A stretch of 64,000 nt of DNA. Source: Rhodanobacter lindaniclasticus. Its GTDB lineage: Bacteria; Pseudomonadota; Gammaproteobacteria; Xanthomonadales; Rhodanobacteraceae. Location: assembly GCF_004799035.1 (NCBI RefSeq), contig NZ_MWIO01000030.1:1-64000 (forward strand), read 5' to 3'. Below, piece by piece: positions 39,023-56,299 of the stretch; within the stretch, counting starts at the first letter, position 1, and each line of letters begins with the position of its first letter. Both the position numbers and the translations under genes were made by a program. Below the pieces are notes generated by a model. It saw only the letters and a program-made list of their open reading frames with translations, was not told the origin of the DNA and ran no database searches.

Positions 39023-39668
39023 CGATCCGCTTTCCCCGCAGCCGCGTGATCAACTCGACGCGACTGCGTGCTCCCAGCCGTTCCAGGATACCGCTCACAT
39101 GCTCCTTGACGGTTTGTTCGGTCAGCGAGAGCTGTTGCGCAACCCGCTTGTTGGGCAGGCCCTTGAGCATCAGGGCGAGGACCTCCCCCTGGCGTGGCGT
39201 CAGGCCCAACTCGGCGGGGCTCAACGGCAGACTGCGCGCTTCGTCGGTCGCCTGGGCGACAACCGAAGTGTCGTCGAACCATGCATCGCCGCGCAGTACC
39301 GCAGCGACGGCCAGCACAAAAACTGCGGGGTCGGCGTGCTTCAGCACAAAACCATCGACGGCCAACCGGCGTACCTTGTCACGGATCACAGGATCGCCGT
39401 CCCCGCTGATCACCAGCAGTCGAGTTGCTGGATACTCGTCCCGAAACCGTGCCAGCATCGGCAACGCCGTACCCTCCGGCAGCCAGAAATCGATCATAGC
39501 CAGTGTCGGCGCTCCGAATTGCCCGATGTGCGCCCAGAGGTCGTCAGCCCGGCAAATCGCATCAGTGCGCGCAAACCCGCCATGCGTGCGCAGAAAGTCC
39601 GCGATGCCGCGCGCGACCAGTGGATGGTCATCCACAACCACGGCGGAATGTTCACTGGGCGGCATCAT
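39015..39668 (-). CDS. NarL/LuxR-family response regulator
   Basis: The 217 aa regulator has a receiver (SAVVVDDHPLVARGIADFL, phospho-Asp in LAMIDFWLPEGTALPML) and a LuxR-type HTH (LGLTPRQGEVLALMLKGLPNKRVAQQLSLTEQTVKEHVSGILERL). It precedes the hybrid kinase gene with an 8-bp overlap. Its own start is 8 bp from the end of the hypothetical gene upstream, so transcription could begin further up. Targets are unknown. Confidence 0.87.
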   Translation of the reverse strand: MMPPSEHSAVVVDDHPLVARGIADFLRTHGGFARTDAICRADDLWAHIGQFGAPTLAMIDFWLPEGTALPMLARFRDEYPATRLLVISGDGDPVIRDKVRRLAVDGFVLKHADPAVFVLAVAAVLRGDAWFDDTSVVAQATDEARSLPLSPAELGLTPRQGEVLALMLKGLPNKRVAQQLSLTEQTVKEHVSGILERLGARSRVELITRLRGKRIDV

Positions 39669-46570: not shown

Positions 46571-46610
46571 CGCTTCTTCTCGGTTCATGCCATTCGACGA
46601 GGAGAAGCTC

Positions 46611-47477
46611 ATGCAAGTGGTGTCCATCATTTCGACCAAGGGCGGCGTGGGCAAGACCACGACGGCGGCCAACCTGGGCGGCTTCATCGCCGATGCCGGG
46701 CTGCGCGTGCTGCTGCTGGACCTGGACGTGCAGCCCACGCTGTCGAGCTACTTCACGCTGGACGTGCGCGCGCCCGGCGGCATCTACGAGATGCTGGCCT
46801 TCAACGAGCGGCGCATCGAGCAACTGGTGTCGCGCACCGCGATCGCGGGCCTGGACCTGGTGCTCTCCAACGACGACCGCGGCGAACTGAACACGCTGCT
46901 GCTGCACGCTCCGGATGGGCGCCTGCGACTGCGCCATCTGCTTCCCGTCTTCCGCACGCACTACGACTTGCTGCTGATCGACACCCAGGGCGCGCGCAGC
47001 GTGCTGCTGGAGATGGCGGTGCTGGCGTCCGACCTGGCGCTGTCGCCGGTGACGCCGGAAATCCTCGCGGCGCGCGAGCTGCGCCGCGGCACCCTGCAAC
47101 TGATCGAGGACATCGCGCCGTATCGGCACCTGGGCATCGAGCCGCCGCCGCTGCGCCTGATCATCAACCGTGTGCATCCGGTGTCGTCGAACGCGCGGCT
47201 GGTCCAGCAGGCGCTGCGACAGGTGTTCCAGGAACAGGCCGGCGTACAGGTGCTGGACACCGACGTGCCGGCCATCGAAGCCTATCCGCGCGCTGCGACA
47301 CGAGGATTGCCGGTACATCGGGTGGAGTACCGGCAGCCGACTGGGCGCACGGCGCCCGCGGCGCTGGACACCATGCGCACGCTGGCCGGTGAGCTGTTCC
47401 CCGCGTGGCGGGAGCGCTTCGCGCTGGTCACCGGCCGCGCCGATGCGGGAGGGGCCGGCCATGGCGAGCGCGCATGA
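46611..47477 (+). CDS. parA: ParA-family ATPase of the ICE
   Basis: The 288 aa protein has a deviant Walker A, STKGGVGKTTTAANLGGFIAD, Walker B-like YDLLLIDTQGAR and the usual ParA helices. It probably stabilises the circular ICE by partition together with the ParB-like protein encoded two genes on. The start at MQVVSII follows GAGGAG by about six bases; an ATG eight codons upstream is also in frame. It overlaps the next small gene by 17 bp. Confidence 0.88.
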   Translation: MQVVSIISTKGGVGKTTTAANLGGFIADAGLRVLLLDLDVQPTLSSYFTLDVRAPGGIYEMLAFNERRIEQLVSRTAIAGLDLVLSNDDRGELNTLLLHAPDGRLRLRHLLPVFRTHYDLLLIDTQGARSVLLEMAVLASDLALSPVTPEILAARELRRGTLQLIEDIAPYRHLGIEPPPLRLIINRVHPVSSNARLVQQALRQVFQEQAGVQVLDTDVPAIEAYPRAATRGLPVHRVEYRQPTGRTAPAALDTMRTLAGELFPAWRERFALVTGRADAGGAGHGERA

Positions 47478-47697
47478 ACTGGCGCGCGGCCGTGAACGGC
47501 TGCGCGCGCTGATCGAGTTTGCGCTGGGCGAAGGCTGGCGCGTGGTGCGCACGTCCGGCGGGCACCTGAAATTCACGAAACCAGGCTGCGCGTCGATCTA
47601 CACCAGCTCGACTGCGAGCGACCACTGTGCCGACCGCAATGCCCGCGCGCAGCTTCGCCGCGCCGACCGGCAGGCGCAGGAGAACGGCCGTGGCTGA
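47461..47697 (+). CDS. Small HicA-like protein between parA and parB
   Basis: The 78 aa protein has an N-terminal helix (HELARGRERLRALIEFALGEGW) and RTSGGHLKFTKPGCASIYTSSTASDHCADRN, which resembles the dsRNA-binding-like fold of HicA (R-x-GSH-x-KF). It corresponds to shi, the short gene between parA and parB in ICEclc. No HicB antitoxin gene is next to it, so a toxin role is uncertain. Start (47461) and end overlap both neighbours (17 and 8 bp). Confidence 0.65.
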   Translation: MASAHELARGRERLRALIEFALGEGWRVVRTSGGHLKFTKPGCASIYTSSTASDHCADRNARAQLRRADRQAQENGRG

Positions 47698-49330
47698 GCT
47701 GACGCCGCAGGACATGGCTGCCAAGCTGCTGGCCACCGGCTTCGAGCGCAGCGGCCCTTCGGCCGCGACCTTGAGCGACCCCATCGCCGACACGCCGATG
47801 GTGGTGACGCTGGACCAGTTGCGGCCCTACGACCACGACCCGCGCGTGACGCGCAACCCGGCCTATGCGGAGATCAAGGCGTCCATCCGCGAACGCGGGC
47901 TGGACGCGCCCCCCGCGATCACGCGCAGGCCGGGCGAGGTGCACTACATCATTCGCAACGGCGGCAACACGCGGCTCGCGATCCTGCGCGAGTTGTGGAG
48001 CGAGACCAAGGAGGAACGCTTCTTCCGCATTGCGTGCCTGTTCCGCCCGTGGCCGGCGCGCGGCGAAATCGTGGCGCTGACCGGGCATCTGGCCGAGAAC
48101 GAGCTGCGCGGCGGGCTGACCTTCATCGAGCGGGCGTTGGGCATCGAGAAGGCGCGCGAGTTCTACGAGCAGGAAAGCGGCCAGGCGCTGTCGCAGAGCG
48201 AACTCGCGCGGCGGCTGACTGCCGACGGCTATCCGGTGCCGCAGTCGCACATCAGCCGCATGAACGATGCGGTGCGCTATCTGCTGCCGGCGATCCCGAC
48301 GTTGTTGTACGGCGGATTGGGCCGGCATCAGGTGGACCGGCTCGCAGTGCTGCGCAAGGCGTGCGAGCGCACCTGGGAGCGGCGTGCGCTGGGCCGCACC
48401 GTGGCCGTGGACTTCGCCACCTTGTTTCAGGACGTGCTGACGCAGTTCGACACACAGCCGGACGACTTCTCGCCGCAGCGGGTGCAGGACGAGCTGGTGG
48501 GCCAGATGGCCGAGCTGCTGGAGGCGGACTACGACACCCTGGCGCTGGAGATAAACGACAGCGAAAGCCGCCAGCGTGCGCTGACCAGCGAACCGGCGGC
48601 GCCTGTCGTGCCTGCTGCACCGCCCTCGCCGGTCTCCGCGCCTCGGCAGCCACGCGCCTCGTCTGTGCCGCGCGACACCACGCCGGTCGCGCCTCCGGCG
48701 CCAGCAGCGACGCCGCCTGCATCGCCCGAAGCACCGGAGGAACAGCACGGGCAACGCGACGAGCGCCTGCAAGGGCACATCGTGACGCCGGCACCGACCA
48801 CCGAGCGTCTGCAGTCCATCCAACGGATGGTCGCGGACCAGCTCGGCGACAAGCTGCCCGACTTCGAGGCCGATGCGCTGCGTGCGATCCCCGTGCAGGC
48901 CGGCGGGCTCTATCCCATCTCGGACGTCTGGTACATCGAGCCGGGGCTGGACGCGCCGGATCGCCTGCGCGTGCACATCGCGCAGTTCGCGCGCGAGATC
49001 GCCGGGGATGCGGCGGTAGCCGACCACATCGAGGCCAGCGACGGCGGCATCGGCTTCGTCTGCGTGGCGCCGGCCATGGGTCAGGCGAAAGCGCTGCCGG
49101 CGTTCGCGCGGGCGGTGCTCACCCTGCTGCATACGCTGAGTGCGGCGCCGCCCGCCGCGAACGGCTTGGACCGCGCGCGGCTGGCCGACGAGCTGGCGGC
49201 GCTGCTGCATGGCCACGGCGGCTCGGCCACACGCCTGAGCGATGCTGCGCTGGTGAAGCTGTTCCGTCTGCTGCGCCTGGCGCGCCGGCTGCTGGATCTG
49301 GAAGCCGGCGTAGCGAGCCAGGATTCCTGA
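47690..49330 (+). CDS. parB: ParB-family protein of the ICE
   Basis: The 546 aa protein starts at a GTG (47690) preceded by AGGAG. Its N-terminal ParB/Srx-type domain shows LDQLRPYDHDPRVTRNPAYAEIKASIRERGLDAPPA and GGNTRLAILREL; a KorB-like helix region follows (LTADGYPVPQSHISRMNDAV). A Pro/Ala-rich linker (about residues 300-350) leads to a C-terminal domain of its own type. In ICEclc the ParB-like gene of this operon has been renamed bisD, partner of BisC in a transcription activator complex; that role is inferred here. Confidence 0.85.
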   Translation: MAELTPQDMAAKLLATGFERSGPSAATLSDPIADTPMVVTLDQLRPYDHDPRVTRNPAYAEIKASIRERGLDAPPAITRRPGEVHYIIRNGGNTRLAILRELWSETKEERFFRIACLFRPWPARGEIVALTGHLAENELRGGLTFIERALGIEKAREFYEQESGQALSQSELARRLTADGYPVPQSHISRMNDAVRYLLPAIPTLLYGGLGRHQVDRLAVLRKACERTWERRALGRTVAVDFATLFQDVLTQFDTQPDDFSPQRVQDELVGQMAELLEADYDTLALEINDSESRQRALTSEPAAPVVPAAPPSPVSAPRQPRASSVPRDTTPVAPPAPAATPPASPEAPEEQHGQRDERLQGHIVTPAPTTERLQSIQRMVADQLGDKLPDFEADALRAIPVQAGGLYPISDVWYIEPGLDAPDRLRVHIAQFAREIAGDAAVADHIEASDGGIGFVCVAPAMGQAKALPAFARAVLTLLHTLSAAPPAANGLDRARLADELAALLHGHGGSATRLSDAALVKLFRLLRLARRLLDLEAGVASQDS

Positions 49331-49347: not shown

Positions 49348-49908
49348 ATGTCGGCACCGCACCCGCTCAACCAGGCCGTGATCGCCCAGGCCCTGCATGA
49401 CCTGCGCAACGGCCAGTTGCGCCGCTGCAAGGCCATGGGCTTCGGCGAGGAGGAGCTGGATGCGCTGAAGCACCCCGAACTCGTGAGCATGCTGGTGAAT
49501 GCCACGGTGTCGTGGTGTTCGGTGTCGGTGAACCGGGAGGTATTGAAGCGGCTTCTGAGCCAGGTGCACGACGTGGAGCGGGAGATCGCCACGGTGGACC
49601 GCATGCTGCGCCTGGGGGCGAGCACGGAGATGGTCAGCAAGTTCTACGGCCTCACGCATCAGGAAGTGGCGCTGCGCCGTGACATCCTCGGGCTGCCCAA
49701 GCGCAAGGGCCGGCATCCGGTGCTCGATGAGGCGCAGGACGTGGCCTTGTGGGAGCGCTGGAAGGCCGGCGTCACCAAGCGCCATATCGCCCTGTCCGAC
49801 GACATGGCGATGCTGGCGCTGACCATGGACCTGGCCGAGGCGCTGAGCCTGCCGATGTCGGTGGTGTGGGCGGCAATACGAAACTGGATCGACCAGGGGC
49901 TGGTGTAG
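49348..49908 (+). CDS. DUF2857 protein (BisC position)
   Basis: The 186 aa protein is a DUF2857 member, recognised by ALHDLRNGQLRRCKAMGFGEEELDAL, TVSWCSVSVNREVLKRL and FYGLTHQEVALRRDILGLPKRKGRHP. DUF2857 has a remote relationship with the flagellar activator FlhC, and in ICEclc the corresponding protein (BisC) activates transfer genes with BisD. It follows parB by 17 bp with AGGAGG at 49335-49340 and precedes the STY4528 gene by 3 bp, so they are one operon. Confidence 0.82.
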   Translation: MSAPHPLNQAVIAQALHDLRNGQLRRCKAMGFGEEELDALKHPELVSMLVNATVSWCSVSVNREVLKRLLSQVHDVEREIATVDRMLRLGASTEMVSKFYGLTHQEVALRRDILGLPKRKGRHPVLDEAQDVALWERWKAGVTKRHIALSDDMAMLALTMDLAEALSLPMSVVWAAIRNWIDQGLV

Positions 49909-49911
49909 GCC

Positions 49912-51096
49912 ATGAGCACGGGTGGCGTACCACGGCGCGAAGGCCCCGTCGCGCTGTCCGCGCTCTTCGACGAGGCCCTGCAGCACCTGCAGCCGGCGCA
50001 GGGAACGGCGCCGGCCGCCGATGGTTTCCTCTACAGCGGCAACCGCCATGAGAGCGTGCCGCGCAGGCTGTTCCTCGACCGACGTCTGACGCCGCTGGAG
50101 CGCAACGCCTGGCAGGTGTTCCGCCTGCAGCTCAACGACGACGGCGTGACCGCCTTTCCCACCTACGACCAATTGCGCCCTTACTTGGCCTCGATGCCCT
50201 GCGCGGCACAAGCCTCGCACGAGACCGTGGCGCGCGCCCTGACGCTGTTGCGGCTGACACGCTGGCTCAGCCTGGTGCGGCGGCGGCGCGACCCGAAGAC
50301 CGGCCGCATTCAAGGCAACCTCTACGTGCTGCACGACGAACCGCTGTCGCCCTTCGAGGCGATGCAGCTCGATGCCGACTACCTCGGCCTGGTCAGTCAG
50401 GCGCTGACCCATGCCGCCAAGGCGGTACAGATCGTGGGCATGAACACGCTCAAGGAGATTGCCGAAGACCCGCTGCTCAGCGGCCGCACGCTGCCGACCC
50501 GCTTGCAGGTGCTGGCGCAGCGCATGGCGCGGCATGGCTGGACGACGCCAGGTTATCCACAGGAGGGTGCCGACCACGAATCCGAAGAAGGCCAGGAAGC
50601 CCTGCTTCGGAATGCTGCGCGCCCGTCTTCGGAATCCGAAGCAGGGCCGAAACCCGCGCCGGACGGCTCTCTTCGGATTCCGAAGGAGGACCGTACAGTA
50701 CGTAATGATCGTATAAATGAAGTACGTACAGTACCGCGCGCGAGGGCCTTGCAGAACCTGCGGCTGCCCGAGCGTTTCCTGCGCTTGAAGGACGAGCAGC
50801 AGGCCGGCGCGCTGGTGGCGCTGAAGCAGGTGGACGAGGCGCAGAGGCAGGCCGTTCTCGACGAGTGGTCCGCACGCTGCCACAACAGCGCGGTACGCAA
50901 CCCGGCCGGCTACCTGTTTGGCATCATCCAGAAGGCGATCCGCGGGGAGTTCAAGGCCTGGGCTGGAGAAAGTGCATCGACGCCGCCAGCGCCCCCGCCA
51001 CCTGCGCCCTCGTCACCGCCGGCATCCCGTGCGGCTGACCCCGAGGTCGCACGAGCCTACCTGGCTCAGCTCCGAGAAGCCTTGCGTGATCGCTGA
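49912..51096 (+). CDS. STY4528-family ICE replication protein
   Basis: The 394 aa protein is of the STY4528 type found in pathogenicity islands and ICEs. N-terminal domain about residues 40-205 (RRLFLDRRLTPLERNAWQVFRLQL, DPKTGRIQGNLYVLHDEPLSP) is DNA-binding and winged-helix-like. Residues about 214-274 are a hydrophilic, low-complexity linker encoded by DNA that contains a DnaA box, iteron-like palindromes and an AT-rich inverted repeat. The C-terminal part (about 280-345, LPERFLRLKDEQQAGALVALKQ) resembles the end of replication initiators. The arrangement recalls lambda O. Confidence 0.78.
   Translation: MSTGGVPRREGPVALSALFDEALQHLQPAQGTAPAADGFLYSGNRHESVPRRLFLDRRLTPLERNAWQVFRLQLNDDGVTAFPTYDQLRPYLASMPCAAQASHETVARALTLLRLTRWLSLVRRRRDPKTGRIQGNLYVLHDEPLSPFEAMQLDADYLGLVSQALTHAAKAVQIVGMNTLKEIAEDPLLSGRTLPTRLQVLAQRMARHGWTTPGYPQEGADHESEEGQEALLRNAARPSSESEAGPKPAPDGSLRIPKEDRTVRNDRINEVRTVPRARALQNLRLPERFLRLKDEQQAGALVALKQVDEAQRQAVLDEWSARCHNSAVRNPAGYLFGIIQKAIRGEFKAWAGESASTPPAPPPPAPSSPPASRAADPEVARAYLAQLREALRDR
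50553..50734. other. Candidate replication origin inside the STY4528 gene
   Basis: In order on the plus strand: a perfect DnaA box TTATCCACA (50553-50561), TCCGAAG half-site (50580-50586), CTTCGGAAT (50605-50613), CTTCGGAATCCGAAG (50627-50641), CTTCGGATTCCGAAG (50671-50685), then GTACAGTACGTA (50693-50704) and TACGTACAGTAC (50723-50734), inverted repeats with one mismatch around an AT-rich 18-bp core. Phage lambda has iterons and an AT-rich unwinding element inside its initiator gene O, in the region encoding a linker. The same layout appears here. Function is inferred. Confidence 0.6.
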
Positions 51097-51226: not shown

Positions 51227-52087
51227 ATGGACATGACAACTTCCCCCGCCACAAACGCACTGCAACCACTACAGCGAGACGTTCAGCGCTTGCTGGGCAG
51301 ATGCCTGTTGCGCCTTCAACAATACGAGCGCCTCATGAAAGCCATCGTGGCCCACCACGAGATTTCAGGCCCGGCGCATTCGCTGGAGGCCATTCGCGCA
51401 GCGCGGATTGAAGATGCCGCGACCAAGACCCTGGGCACGTTGGTCGGACAACTGTTTGGTTCGTATGTCGTCACCGATGGAAATGGCGGCGAGGAACGCG
51501 ACGACGATCTTCCCGGCGACGTGATTTCCTTTCGCACGCGCGTGCAACTGAGCCTGTCTGCGCAGGACTACGCCAACACCCAAGCCGACCTCAAAGACCT
51601 GGTATCGCTGCGCAACACCTTGGTGCACCACTTCATCGATCAGCACGATCTATGGACCGTGGACGGGTGCCGCGCTGCACAGGACGAACTCGGTTCCGCC
51701 TACACGCGCATCGATCAATACTTCGAGCAGCTGCGCGGCTGGGCCGAGCACATGGATCAGGCGCGGCGCCTGACAGCGGAATTCGTCCAGTCGGATGTGT
51801 TCCACGACCTGGTGGTCAATGGCATCGCGCCGGACGGCACGGTGGACTGGCCGGCCGCCGGCATCGTTCGTGCGCTGCGCGAGGCCGCCGCGCAGTTGGC
51901 CGTCGAGGGCTGGACACCCATCGCCGCCGCTGGCCGCTGGATCGCGGACCGGCATCCCGAGCAGCTTCCAGCCAAGTACGGCTGCAGCAGTTGGCGGCAG
52001 GTGGTGCACGAGTGCCGCCTGTTCGAGCTTCGCTACCGTGAGGTGGAGGGGCAACGGGCCGCCTGGTACCGACCTCGCGAGGCATAG
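51227..52087 (+). CDS. ICE protein with C-terminal OST-HTH/LOTUS-like domain
   Basis: The 286 aa protein has an N-terminal helical region of about 170 residues (LQRDVQRLLGRCLLRLQQYERLMKAIVAHHE, NTLVHHFIDQHDLW, related to conserved helical bundles with a His motif) and a C-terminal winged-helix, LAVEGWTPIAAAGRWIADRHPEQLPAKYGCSSWRQVV, of OST-HTH/LOTUS type. LOTUS domains bind RNA or DEAD-box helicases in animals and structured RNA in bacteria. The ATG at 51227 is one of two closely spaced choices. Preceded by palindrome copy 1. Role in the ICE unknown. Confidence 0.7.
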   Translation: MDMTTSPATNALQPLQRDVQRLLGRCLLRLQQYERLMKAIVAHHEISGPAHSLEAIRAARIEDAATKTLGTLVGQLFGSYVVTDGNGGEERDDDLPGDVISFRTRVQLSLSAQDYANTQADLKDLVSLRNTLVHHFIDQHDLWTVDGCRAAQDELGSAYTRIDQYFEQLRGWAEHMDQARRLTAEFVQSDVFHDLVVNGIAPDGTVDWPAAGIVRALREAAAQLAVEGWTPIAAAGRWIADRHPEQLPAKYGCSSWRQVVHECRLFELRYREVEGQRAAWYRPREA

Positions 52088-53064: not shown

Positions 53065-53609
53065 CAGCATCGCCCCCCATCAGCCACTCCACGCGCTTCG
53101 TGGCGCTGGAACAGGCGGACTTCCAGCGGCTGGAACACGCAGGCTACCTAAAAGGCCTTTTACAGCCCTTTAAGGGTAAGGGGAGTCTGGAGACCTGGGC
53201 CAGCCAGTGCGCAGCGCTGCGCGACGACGTGATTGGCCTGGCGCAGCGGCGCGTGCTGCCCCAGGCGCGCGCCTATCCCTTCAGTCTGCTCGACGTGCAA
53301 CTGGCCCAGCAGGCCACTGGCGCAGGGACGACCTTCCTGCGCTGGCGCAACCTCGACCGTTCCTCCATGGGCGTGGCGTTGTGGGAGGCCCTGCTGGCCA
53401 ACCCCGCGACGCCGGCCTCGCTGATCGACGAGCTGTACGCGATCGAACTGCAGCGCATCGTGCTGAACATGCAGATCAGCCTGACCCACAGCATCGCTCG
53501 CCAAGCCCTGGAATGCGCCAACAAGGCCGCGCAGGCCGAAGCGGCTTACCTGCGGCGCGTCCACGGGCATACCGCGTCCGTTCCACCCACCACCAAGGAG
53601 TCACCATGA
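53061..53609 (+). CDS. DUF3158 family ICE protein
   Basis: The 182 aa product is of the DUF3158 family (FQRLEHAGYLKGLLQPFKGKGSLETWASQCAALRDDVIGLAQRRVL, TTFLRWRNLDRSSMGVALWEALL). It is helical and without known activity. It overlaps TIGR03761 upstream by 4 bp and the ssb gene downstream by 4 bp, so all three are translated from one message. Confidence 0.82.
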   Translation: MTASPPISHSTRFVALEQADFQRLEHAGYLKGLLQPFKGKGSLETWASQCAALRDDVIGLAQRRVLPQARAYPFSLLDVQLAQQATGAGTTFLRWRNLDRSSMGVALWEALLANPATPASLIDELYAIELQRIVLNMQISLTHSIARQALECANKAAQAEAAYLRRVHGHTASVPPTTKESP

Positions 53610-53989
53610 GCACGCACTTCGTCGGCGAGGGCAACATCGGTTCTGCGCCGGACTACCGCGAATTTCCGAACGGCAACGACGAGCCACGCCGGCTGCTGCG
53701 CCTGAACGTCTACTTCGACAACCCGATCCCGAAGAAGGACGGCGAGTACGAAGATCGCGGCGGCTTCTGGGCGCCCGTGGAGCTGTGGCACCGCGACGCC
53801 GAGCACTGGAAGACGCTGTACCAGAAAGGTATGCGGGTACTGGTCGAGGGCCGCACCGTGCGCGACGAATGGGAGGACGCCGACGAGAATGAGCGCGTGA
53901 CGTTCAAGGTCGAGGCGCGGCGCGTGGGCATCCTGCCGTACCGCATCGAGTCGGTGGCGCTCAGCGCCAAGCCGGCCGGCGGACAGTAA
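53606..53989 (+). CDS. ssb: ICE single-stranded DNA-binding protein
   Basis: The 127 aa protein is an SSB-like OB-fold: GNIGSAPDYREFPNGNDEPRRLLRLNVYFDN, GFWAPVELWHRDAEHWKTLYQKGMRVLVEGRTVRDEW. It is shorter than chromosomal SSB and lacks the acidic DDDIPF tail that recruits repair proteins. It probably coats ICE single strands during conjugation or replication. The ATG follows AAGGAG by seven bases and overlaps the DUF3158 gene by 4 bp. Confidence 0.85.
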   Translation: MSTHFVGEGNIGSAPDYREFPNGNDEPRRLLRLNVYFDNPIPKKDGEYEDRGGFWAPVELWHRDAEHWKTLYQKGMRVLVEGRTVRDEWEDADENERVTFKVEARRVGILPYRIESVALSAKPAGGQ

Positions 53990-54283: not shown

Positions 54284-56299
54284 ATGCGCGTGTTTCTGTG
54301 CGAGAAGCCGTCCCAGGGCAAGGACATCGCCCGTGTGCTGGGCGCCGGCCAACGCGGCAATGGCTGCTACAGCGGCGCGGGTGTCGTCGTGACCTGGTGC
54401 ATCGGTCATCTGGTGGAGGCGGTTCCGCCCGAAGGCTATGGTGAGCAATACAAGCGCTGGGCCATCGAGCAACTGCCTATTCTTCCTGAGCGTTGGCGTG
54501 TCGAGCCCAAGGTGGCGACCGCGGCGCAATTCAAGGTCGTGCAGCAGCTCGTCGCCAAGGCGGGCGAGCTGGTGATAGCGACCGACGCCGACCGCGAGGG
54601 CGAGATGATCGCCCGCGAGATCATCGACCTGTGCGGCTACCACGGGCCGATTCAGCGCCTGTGGCTGTCGGCGCTTAACGATGCGTCGATCCGCAAAGCG
54701 CTGGGTGCGCTCAAGCCGTCCGCCGAGACGCTGCCGCTGTATTTCTCCGCACTCGCCCGATCGCGCGCCGACTGGCTGATTGGGATGAACCTGAGCCGCT
54801 TGTTCACACTGCTGGGGCGCCAGGCCGGCTATACCGGCGTGCTGTCGGTGGGGCGCGTGCAGACGCCGACGCTGAAGTTGGTGGTGGATCGTGATCGCGA
54901 GATCGCACGTTTCGTCTCAGTGCCGTTCTGGGCGATCGAGGTCACGCTGTCCCATGCCGGCCAATCCTTCATCGCAAGTTGGACGTCGCCGCAGGGTTGT
55001 ATTGACGATGCTGGCCGTTGCTTGCAACAGCCGGTCGCCCAGCAGGCCGCCGACCGCATGCGCGCCGCCGGCAGCGCCCAGGTGGTGTCGGTCGAGACGG
55101 AGCGCATGCGCGAAGGGCCGCCGCTGCCGTTCGACCTGGGCACGCTGCAGGAGGTGTGCTCCAAGCAGTTGGGCCTTGACGTGCAGGAGACGCTGGACAT
55201 TGCCCAGGCGCTGTACGAGACGCACAAGGCGACAACGTATCCGCGCTCGGATTCGGGCTACCTGCCCGAGAGCATGCTGGCCGAGGTACCGACCGTACTC
55301 GACAGCCTGGTCAAGACCGACCCCAGCCTGCGGCCGCTGATCGAGCGCCTGGATCGCCAACAGCGCTCGCGTGCATGGAACGACGGCAAGGTGTCGGCTC
55401 ACCACGGCATCATCCCGACGCTGGAGCCCGCCAACCTGTCGGCCATGAACGAGAAGGAACTGGCCGTCTACCGACTGATCCGCGCCCATTACCTCGCGCA
55501 GTTCCTCCCGCACCATGAGTTCGACCGGACGGTGTCGCAGTTCTCGTGCGGCAGTCAGTCGCTGGCGGCCGTGGGCAAGCAGATCGCCGTCACCGGCTGG
55601 CGCGAGGTGCTGGCATCGCCGGCACCGGACGATGCCGATGGCGAGGATGCGCTGCGCAGCCAGATTCTGCCCGCCCTGCATGCGGGCCTGTCCTGCCCGG
55701 TCGGGAAGGTAGATCTCAAGGCGCTGAAGACGCTGCCGCCCAAACCCTACACGCAGGGCGAGCTGATCAAGGCCATGAAGACCGTCGCCAAGTTCGTGAC
55801 CGACCCGCGGCTGAAACAGAAGCTGCGAGATACCACCGGCATCGGCACCGAGGCGACACGCGCCAACATCATCAACGGTCTGATCGGTCGCGGCTACCTG
55901 GTCAAGAAAGGCCGCGCCGTCCGCGCTTCCGACGCGGCATTCACGCTCATCGACGCGGTGCCCTCGGCCATCGCCGACCCCGGCACCACGGCGGTGTGGG
56001 AGCAGGCGCTCGACATGATCGAGGCCGGCCAGATGGCGCTGGACACCTTCATCGAGAAGCAGTCCGTGTGGGTCGGTCAGCTCGTGCAGCAGTACCGCGG
56101 CGCGACGCTCTCGCTCAAGCTGCCGCCGGCGCCGGCCTGCCCGCAGTGCGGCGCACCGATGCAGCAGCGCACGGGCAAGAGCGGCGCGTTTTGGTCCTGT
56201 TCGCGCTACCCGGACTGCAAGGGCACGTTGCCGATCGAGTCCCCGACGGGCCGGCGCAGCGCACCGCGCAAGCGGCGCGCTGCCTCCAAGGCGTCCTGA
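54284..56299 (+). CDS. topB: DNA topoisomerase III (ICE copy)
   Basis: The 671 aa type IA topoisomerase decatenates or relaxes DNA. It has the TOPRIM motifs VFLCEKPSQGKDIARVLG and ATDADREGEMIAREI, ARSRADWLIGMNLSRLFTL, SVGRVQTPTLKLVVDRD, the active-site tyrosine in TTYPRSDSGYLPE (about residue 320), and one C-terminal zinc ribbon CPQCGAPMQQRTGKSGAFWSCSRYPDCKGTL. ICE copies of TopB belong to the element's replication/partition set. The ATG follows AAGGAGG by five bases. It is followed by a long non-coding stretch. Confidence 0.92.
   Translation: MRVFLCEKPSQGKDIARVLGAGQRGNGCYSGAGVVVTWCIGHLVEAVPPEGYGEQYKRWAIEQLPILPERWRVEPKVATAAQFKVVQQLVAKAGELVIATDADREGEMIAREIIDLCGYHGPIQRLWLSALNDASIRKALGALKPSAETLPLYFSALARSRADWLIGMNLSRLFTLLGRQAGYTGVLSVGRVQTPTLKLVVDRDREIARFVSVPFWAIEVTLSHAGQSFIASWTSPQGCIDDAGRCLQQPVAQQAADRMRAAGSAQVVSVETERMREGPPLPFDLGTLQEVCSKQLGLDVQETLDIAQALYETHKATTYPRSDSGYLPESMLAEVPTVLDSLVKTDPSLRPLIERLDRQQRSRAWNDGKVSAHHGIIPTLEPANLSAMNEKELAVYRLIRAHYLAQFLPHHEFDRTVSQFSCGSQSLAAVGKQIAVTGWREVLASPAPDDADGEDALRSQILPALHAGLSCPVGKVDLKALKTLPPKPYTQGELIKAMKTVAKFVTDPRLKQKLRDTTGIGTEATRANIINGLIGRGYLVKKGRAVRASDAAFTLIDAVPSAIADPGTTAVWEQALDMIEAGQMALDTFIEKQSVWVGQLVQQYRGATLSLKLPPAPACPQCGAPMQQRTGKSGAFWSCSRYPDCKGTLPIESPTGRRSAPRKRRAASKAS

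Follow-up and report, generated by a model that had tools for sequence, protein, structure and literature searches.

A putative replication origin nested in the STY4528-family gene of a Rhodanobacter lindaniclasticus integrative element

The window analysed here, the first 64,000 nucleotides of contig NZ_MWIO01000030.1 of R. lindaniclasticus (assembly GCF_004799035.1), carries a gene row of an integrative and conjugative element (ICE), in which genes encoding ParA, a PFGI-1-type ParB and a DUF2857 protein are followed by one encoding a protein of the STY4528 family (NF040582, E 9.4e-123; 410 bits against a cut-off of 130) that has no Pfam match at E 0.1. In the middle of the STY4528 gene, positions 50553-50734 hold a DnaA box, two full and two half copies of a palindromic repeat, and an inverted repeat framing an AT-rich core (Table 1). 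This segment is probably (about 0.8) a replication origin (oriV) of the iteron type, nested in the gene for its own initiator. The sequence-only reading of the window had named these elements and assigned them to codons of a disordered linker; all of them were recovered, and most of residues 212-279 are modelled with a predicted local distance difference test score (pLDDT) below 50, which is consistent with disorder.

Table 1. Features of the proposed origin, the STY4528 gene that contains it and neighbouring genes of the element
Feature	Position	Strand	Remarks
DnaA box TTATCCACA	50553..50561	+	sole perfect copy in window
Half iteron 1, GAATCCGAAG	50578..50587	+	
Half iteron 2, CTTCGGAAT	50605..50613	+	
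Full iteron CTTCGGAATCCGAAG	50627..50641	+	15-bp palindrome; translated as SESE
Full iteron CTTCGGATTCCGAAG	50671..50685	+	15-bp palindrome; 44 bp from the CTTCGGAATCCGAAG copy; other frame, LRIPK
Left arm GTACAGTACGTA of framed AT patch	50693..50704	+	
AT-rich core	50705..50722	+	candidate unwinding element
Right arm TACGTACAGTAC of framed AT patch	50723..50734	+	
Codons of predicted winged helix-turn-helix	50047..50346	+	residues 46-145
Codons of ASHET, start of putative recognition helix	50212..50226	+	residues 101-105; varies with iteron type
Codons of C-terminal helices	50770..50940	+	residues 287-343; candidate helicase- or host-contact domain
STY4528-family replication protein gene	49912..51096	+	394 aa; proposed initiator; open reading frame (ORF), NCBIfam NF040582
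ParA	46587..47477	+	PF13614, E 2.5e-26
PFGI-1-type ParB	47627..49330	+	TIGR03764, E 3.8e-120
DUF2857	49348..49908	+	PF11198, E 5.3e-64
Single-stranded DNA-binding protein (SSB)	53606..53989	+	NF006039, E 8.9e-73; start inferred from family match
DNA topoisomerase III (TopB)	54284..56299	+	NF005829, E 1.2e-264

A perfect DnaA box is expected 0.05 times in the window, and at least one copy occurred in 5 of 100 shuffles. The exact palindrome pattern, CTTCGGANTCCGAAG, has two sites in the 4.06-Mb genome, both in the STY4528 gene, and the reversed pattern used as a control has none. With up to three mismatches the window contains three matches against 2.4 expected, so that the unusual part is the two exact copies. 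In a repeat scan of the gene (11-mers with at most one mismatch, on either strand, within 250 bp) one word was found in five copies, compared with a mean of 2.05 and a maximum of three in 20 synonymous-codon shuffles. The 12-bp arms GTACAGTACGTA and TACGTACAGTAC form an inverted repeat of the GTAC type with a single mismatch, and the 60 bp past the last iteron are 50% AT against 33% for the whole gene, with only 2.3% of gene windows being higher.

Genome contigs yielded 430 candidate stretches, of which 308 were confirmed and the best 80 kept as close relatives of the gene; six peptide seeds served to find the relatives, and one of them (DHESEEGQ) falls in the linker and is a possible source of bias. 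Two more relatives came from genomes of the same class, where 21 of 369 matched. The resulting 83 genes, including the window copy, were reduced to 57 by removal of near-duplicates at 98.5% identity. Third codon positions of these 57 genes (window included) match the window with an identity of 0.913 across 50553-50734 and 0.938 across 50605-50734; for the N-domain, the C-domain and the tail the values are 0.807, 0.849 and 0.599, respectively. The earlier reading had proposed asking whether the iteron layout is kept beyond the linker protein, and the answer is positive: the excess of synonymous identity over expectation is 0.130 in block 50605-50763 and at most 0.042 in all non-overlapping blocks of equal length, while the amino-acid identity of linker windows (about 0.75-0.92) is below that of most of the N-domain. 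Nine of the 343 equal-length blocks exceed 50605-50763, every one of them overlapping it; two 12-codon windows of the N-domain (50116-50151 and 50332-50367) also reach an excess of +0.12.

The individual elements are likewise retained in the 57 close genes. The DnaA box is exact in 53 and has at most one difference in all 57, half iteron 1 is exact in 44 (56 with at most one difference), and half iteron 2 is exact in 56. The first full iteron is exact in 53 genes, with all six arm pairs intact in 55; the second is exact in 41 and replaced by CTTCGGAATCCGAAG in another 12, with all six pairs intact in 53. The left and right arms of the inverted repeat are exact in 47 and 50 genes, respectively, and the AT core (50705-50721) in 32. 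Since the four iteron copies occupy two reading frames, so that a single DNA word encodes both SESE-type peptides and those of the LRIPK/LRN type, it is the DNA rather than the peptide that is kept. Judged from these alignments, selection acts on the DNA of the linker stretch.

More distant relatives were found in 33 of 72,556 plasmid records, from which 16 regions were taken, and at five loci of viral contigs, of which four were used; with the window they form a set of 21 genes that includes several near-duplicates. Loci of relatives are labelled by L-numbers, L111 being pKLC102, L118 ICEHin1056, and L124, L126 and L127 small ColpVC-type plasmids. The plasmid, ICE and viral-contig relatives are 25-50% identical to the window protein, apart from L108 and L130 at about 73-76%. 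All 21 genes contain at least two related 15-bp palindromes (dyads), a number beyond all 30 synonymous shuffles in 20 of them and tied in L131. The dyads, which lie in the linker of the Pseudomonas, Enterobacterales and Haemophilus relatives, share the form [CG]TTC-N7-GAA[GC] with lineage-specific inner bases, the half-sites being CTTCGG in the window, L108 and L130, GTTCGG in Pseudomonas, Enterobacterales and L131, GTTCCA in ICEHin1056 and GTTCTC in L132. A spacing of 44 bp occurs in 18 of the 21 genes and is the last one in 16. Forty spacings, some of them from class-level relatives, group around a period of 10.75 bp (R 0.79, with none of 5000 random sets as high), and the 14 distinct values counted once each give R 0.61 (p 0.025). 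In all 20 genes compared (L119 left aside), the 60 bp past the last iteron have a higher AT content than the gene itself, and in 18 they fall in the top 3.1% of its windows, the exceptions being ICEHin1056 (0.097) and L131 (0.105). These genes share the arrangement of iteron-type theta origins, in which repeats near helical phase adjoin an AT-rich region, with the reservation that codon phase is not fully separated. Under strict criteria (arms of 9 bp, one mismatch at most, two or more GTA), an inverted-repeat frame surrounds the AT patch in 8 of 19 of these genes, and others have shorter arms; L109 and L119 were left out of this count and of the reading-frame survey. Spacings, last-iteron positions and half-sites were entered by hand from the palindrome scan, with the value for L011 taken from one palindrome, and the statistics for palindromes, AT patches, GTA repeats, spacings and half-sites ignore kinship between rows.

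The class-level relatives constitute a second branch. In 15 of 18 genes there, some of them near-duplicates, repeats of the type GTAGTAG...CTACTAC enclose the AT patch; any such GTA-rich inverted repeat around an AT-rich loop appeared in at most 4 of 50 shuffles per gene. Their iterons are less regular, strict palindromes beating the null in only 2 of 14. When the window and 40 relatives were scanned for repeated words, every shuffle was beaten at 9 of 24 class-level loci (fragments and duplicates included; L004 by virtue of tail repeats), compared with 15 of 16 plasmid genes, L120 being tied. In several class-level relatives strict palindromes reveal no iterons, and TTCAAA/TTTGAA and similar words, partly recognised by eye, are found there.

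The predicted N-terminal domain offers a candidate reader for the dyads. Its third helix (residues 103-115) was taken as the recognition helix of the winged helix-turn-helix. The residues ASHET are present in 83 of 83 close genes, and C..G outer bases in both full iterons in 82 of them; the pairing of ASHET with CTTCGG recurs in L108 and L130, and all 12 genes with GTTCGG iterons encode AS[RK]E[TS]. Across 21 genes, half-site distance tracks the N-domain once the C-domain is accounted for (partial r 0.72; 0 of 2000 permutations), and the reverse partial correlation, with the C-domain given the N-domain, is -0.42; this comparison excluded the near-duplicates L111, L119, L120 and L122 and several class-level genes lacking clear iterons. 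Helices of the C-terminal region are predicted at residues 287-290, 294-304, 312-324 and 331-343. The first six VIA-align rows were replication proteins, and the best-ranked solved folds were Geobacillus primosome DnaB, RctB and certain initiator entries, which we take to be staphylococcal RepA. Foldseek returned nothing below 0.001 against PDB and viral models, and at the sequence level both the family profile and the window N-domain gave chance matches only against solved structures.

The proposed nested origin would operate as follows. After excision of the element, the STY4528 protein would bind the dyads, probably in dimeric form and by way of its recognition helix, and the phased complex would open the AT patch, aided in the clade of the window by host DnaA. 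The C-terminal helical domain may then recruit a DnaB-type helicase. Enterobacterial and Haemophilus relatives encode such a helicase beside ParB (dnaB-PI or dnaB), which could serve there; no DnaB_C match is present on the contig of the window, and the two in the genome lie on other contigs, so that the window element would presumably use host DnaB. The neighbouring SSB and TopB would assist replication, and the disordered linker would supply coding sequence that tolerates an origin.

Extending this to the relatives, we lean slightly towards the view that STY4528 proteins are a large separate initiator family, serving ICEs of Proteobacteria as well as the plasmid forms of these elements. On this view each has an oriV in its own linker codons, consisting of 15-bp dyads, typically [CG]TTC-N7-GAA[GC], near helical phase and, after them, an AT patch enclosed by GTA-rich inverted repeats, and dyad specificity comes largely from residues 102-105. 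Part of this plan, favoured to the same modest degree, is a frame of the GTAC type in one branch and of TAG repeats in the other; the latter are reminiscent of DnaA-trios, by resemblance only. If residues 102-105 largely set dyad specificity, gene and origin would diverge together. The match between recognition helix and iteron could explain compatibility between co-resident elements. A nested origin would provide ICEclc-type elements with an alternative replication route, allowing life as plasmids, and such mobile elements, a family common among bacteria, would possess their own plasmid-like replication system. The proposal narrows to one gene and about 180 bp, for which silent mutations are a clean test.

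Several observations weigh against the interpretation as an origin or against parts of it. Of 30 distant linker stretches, only five show the DnaA consensus TTWTNCACA (L108, L118, L130, L132 and L019, with a perfect box in L108, L130 and L019), so the layout common to the family is iterons plus AT patch. Purely helical phasing is also in doubt, because 21 of the 40 spacings are multiples of three, above the expected third, although the commonest, 44 bp (14 of 40), is not. Moreover, the extra copies of excised ICEclc are described as dependent on TraI and oriT1 (PMC6561031), which is also a point for a true origin located elsewhere, whether oriT or the repeats 3' of the gene in PFGI-1 and pKLC102, with STY4528 binding its sites for copy control, autoregulation or incompatibility. 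In pKLC102 a 57-bp unit is repeated in tandem about 15 times directly 3' of the STY4528 gene (L111:6370-7235), the published putative oriV of PFGI-1 includes 46-bp repeats downstream of the gene (PMC2647930), and the ColpVC mini-plasmids carry a single palindrome of this kind, though L124 and L126 encode a 'protein rep' of their own. Nevertheless, we regard an origin elsewhere as improbable: the window has no tandem array directly downstream of STY4528, every one of the 21 genes outside the class-level set has intragenic dyads, the last dyad is followed by an AT patch, and a mid-gene position would be more natural for an origin than for an operator.

ParS sites are often palindromic, and the palindromes might accordingly be partition (parS) sites, or BisDC operators, for the neighbouring ParB-family protein, the AT patch being incidental. 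The gene for a TIGR03764 ParB lies two genes upstream, and this kind of ParB accompanies STY4528 in 15 of 16 records and in 13 of 14 genomes; in these sets its presence or absence did not separate an origin from parS. The ParB and DUF2857 proteins correspond, the former by gene order, to BisD and BisC of ICEclc; a cloned ICEclc fragment without orf96323, orf95213 and inrR, the three genes after bisC, gave lower Pint reporter expression, which speaks for such sites (PMC7423338). Against them, BisD and BisC are described as transcription activators in ICEclc (PMC7423338). The exact palindrome is found nowhere else in the genome and hence not at other promoters, the iteron sequence appears to follow the recognition helix of STY4528 (the only protein compared), and the palindromes are adjoined by an AT patch and, in the window's clade, a DnaA box. 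Partition or operator sites therefore seem as improbable as an origin elsewhere. Least probable, with only a very slight chance, is that the synonymous conservation reflects mRNA hairpins acting in attenuation, stability or translation control instead of DNA sites. The RNA of the region folds strongly (z -5.99, 0 of 200 shuffles as good), as expected of any inverted-repeat stretch; hairpins, however, have no need of an AT-rich patch and do not explain the DnaA box, which is kept along with the half-site copies. Further points against hairpins are the spacings at helical multiples, subject to the caveat on codon phase, and the apparent tracking of the predicted DNA-recognition helix by the iteron sequence.

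The layout had been likened to oriL in lambda gene O. The likeness holds for mid-gene iterons (annotated at lambda 39034-39118) with an AT-rich region directly 3' inside the initiator gene; in lambda the 60 bp past the iterons are 68% AT against 52% for gene O. It does not extend to the DnaA box, which is not family-wide and which, like the inverted-repeat frame, distinguishes the window from lambda, nor to homology with lambda O, hhalign of the window protein giving a probability of 0.1. The resemblance to lambda O and staphylococcal RepA would be one of mode of working. Full-iteron spacing is commonly 44 or 54 bp in STY4528 genes and 20-24 in lambda, and the window gene, unlike gene O, sits in a ParA-ParB(BisD)-BisC-STY4528 row. 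The window protein has no match to PHROG O-like families; among relatives L006 matched at 5.5e-5 and the pKLC102 and SGI4 proteins weakly at 0.03 and 0.036. Searches of phages by tblastn matched two and three records, in none of which an O gene is annotated at the matched stretch, and a viral-contig scan for the dyad plus TACGTA found one contig, already among the relatives.

Plasmids pSK41, pSK1 and pAD1 of Gram-positive bacteria are, we assume, of the RepA_N type. Pfam RepA_N did not match the window protein at E 0.1 or nine relatives at E 1, and STY4528 relatives differ from such plasmids in being found in Proteobacteria, many ICE-like, with dyads that are spaced palindromes. The repABC plasmids of Alphaproteobacteria resemble the window in having ParA-type, ParB-type and initiator genes in a row and an oriV inside the initiator gene, where replication is lost when the AT region is altered silently; the AT-rich oriV in repC of p42d differs in being described as having neither iterons nor DnaA boxes (PMC3155836). 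The RP-C N-domain (PF03428) is not matched by the window or nine relatives, and two relatives have weak RP-C_C matches (0.045 and 0.14).

Intragenic iteron origins are known, and are termed 'uncommon but not exceptional' with pAD1, pSX267, pAMbeta1, pLS32, pSK1 and pSK41 as examples (PMC3155836). The palindromes of this family have also been noted before: those of PFGI-1, CTGAGTTCGGAATCCGAACTCAGT, which are of the same kind as the window's, were assigned to a putative oriV by authors who also state that PFGI-1 encodes no Rep protein (PMC2647930), and for ICEHin1056 an AT-rich region and iteron-like repeats were reported and said to be consistent with pKLC102, SPI-7 and PAPI (PMC2258188). In contrast to the reading given here, neither account, in the portions available, places the array inside an initiator gene. 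A search of titles and abstract openings, with subscription papers largely outside it, found no report of an origin inside an STY4528 gene. By size and place, orf5 of ICEHin1056, listed as ssb and not disrupted in PMC3739013, is the STY4528 gene of L118 (L118:2977-4200), in which dyads of its own occur together with a large CAGTACAGTAC inverted repeat.

A dyad of the STY4528 type lies outside annotated genes in ColpVC-type plasmids (1,934 and 2,058 bp, and kin; e.g. L124 and L127). In L124 it is ACTGAGTTCGG-TTT-CCGAACTCAGT at 1224-1248, and 51 of the 60 listed records carrying such a dyad, of 122 matched, are smaller than 4.3 kb. The dyad may tie these plasmids to co-resident ICEs. The idea that these plasmids are natural satellites with the origin alone was dropped because L124 and L126 encode their own 'protein rep' and L124 has a single dyad; the gene table of L127 lists a hypothetical protein only. 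STY4528 was also considered as a plasmid's only initiator and rejected for pPant4, which encodes another 'replication initiation protein'. In a Citrobacter circle of 71,960 bp with 69 annotated features, the only initiator-type gene beside STY4528 is a 'STY4534 family ICE replication protein'; this is suggestive, and no more, of STY4528 as the sole initiator, because integrases are present and the gene table is incomplete.

Downstream of the STY4528 gene the window encodes an OST-HTH protein, PFL_4669/AcaB, DUF3158, SSB and TopB, the NF006039 match of SSB beginning at residue 134 of ORF 53207-53989. The adjoining OST-HTH/LOTUS-domain gene lies at 51227-52087 (PF12872, E 8e-10). A partial C-terminal copy of STY4528 (L022 and L027; G262:C1:1406950-1407370) was observed as 161-residue frames on a contig that also carries an intact gene, and its second match is interrupted by one TGA.
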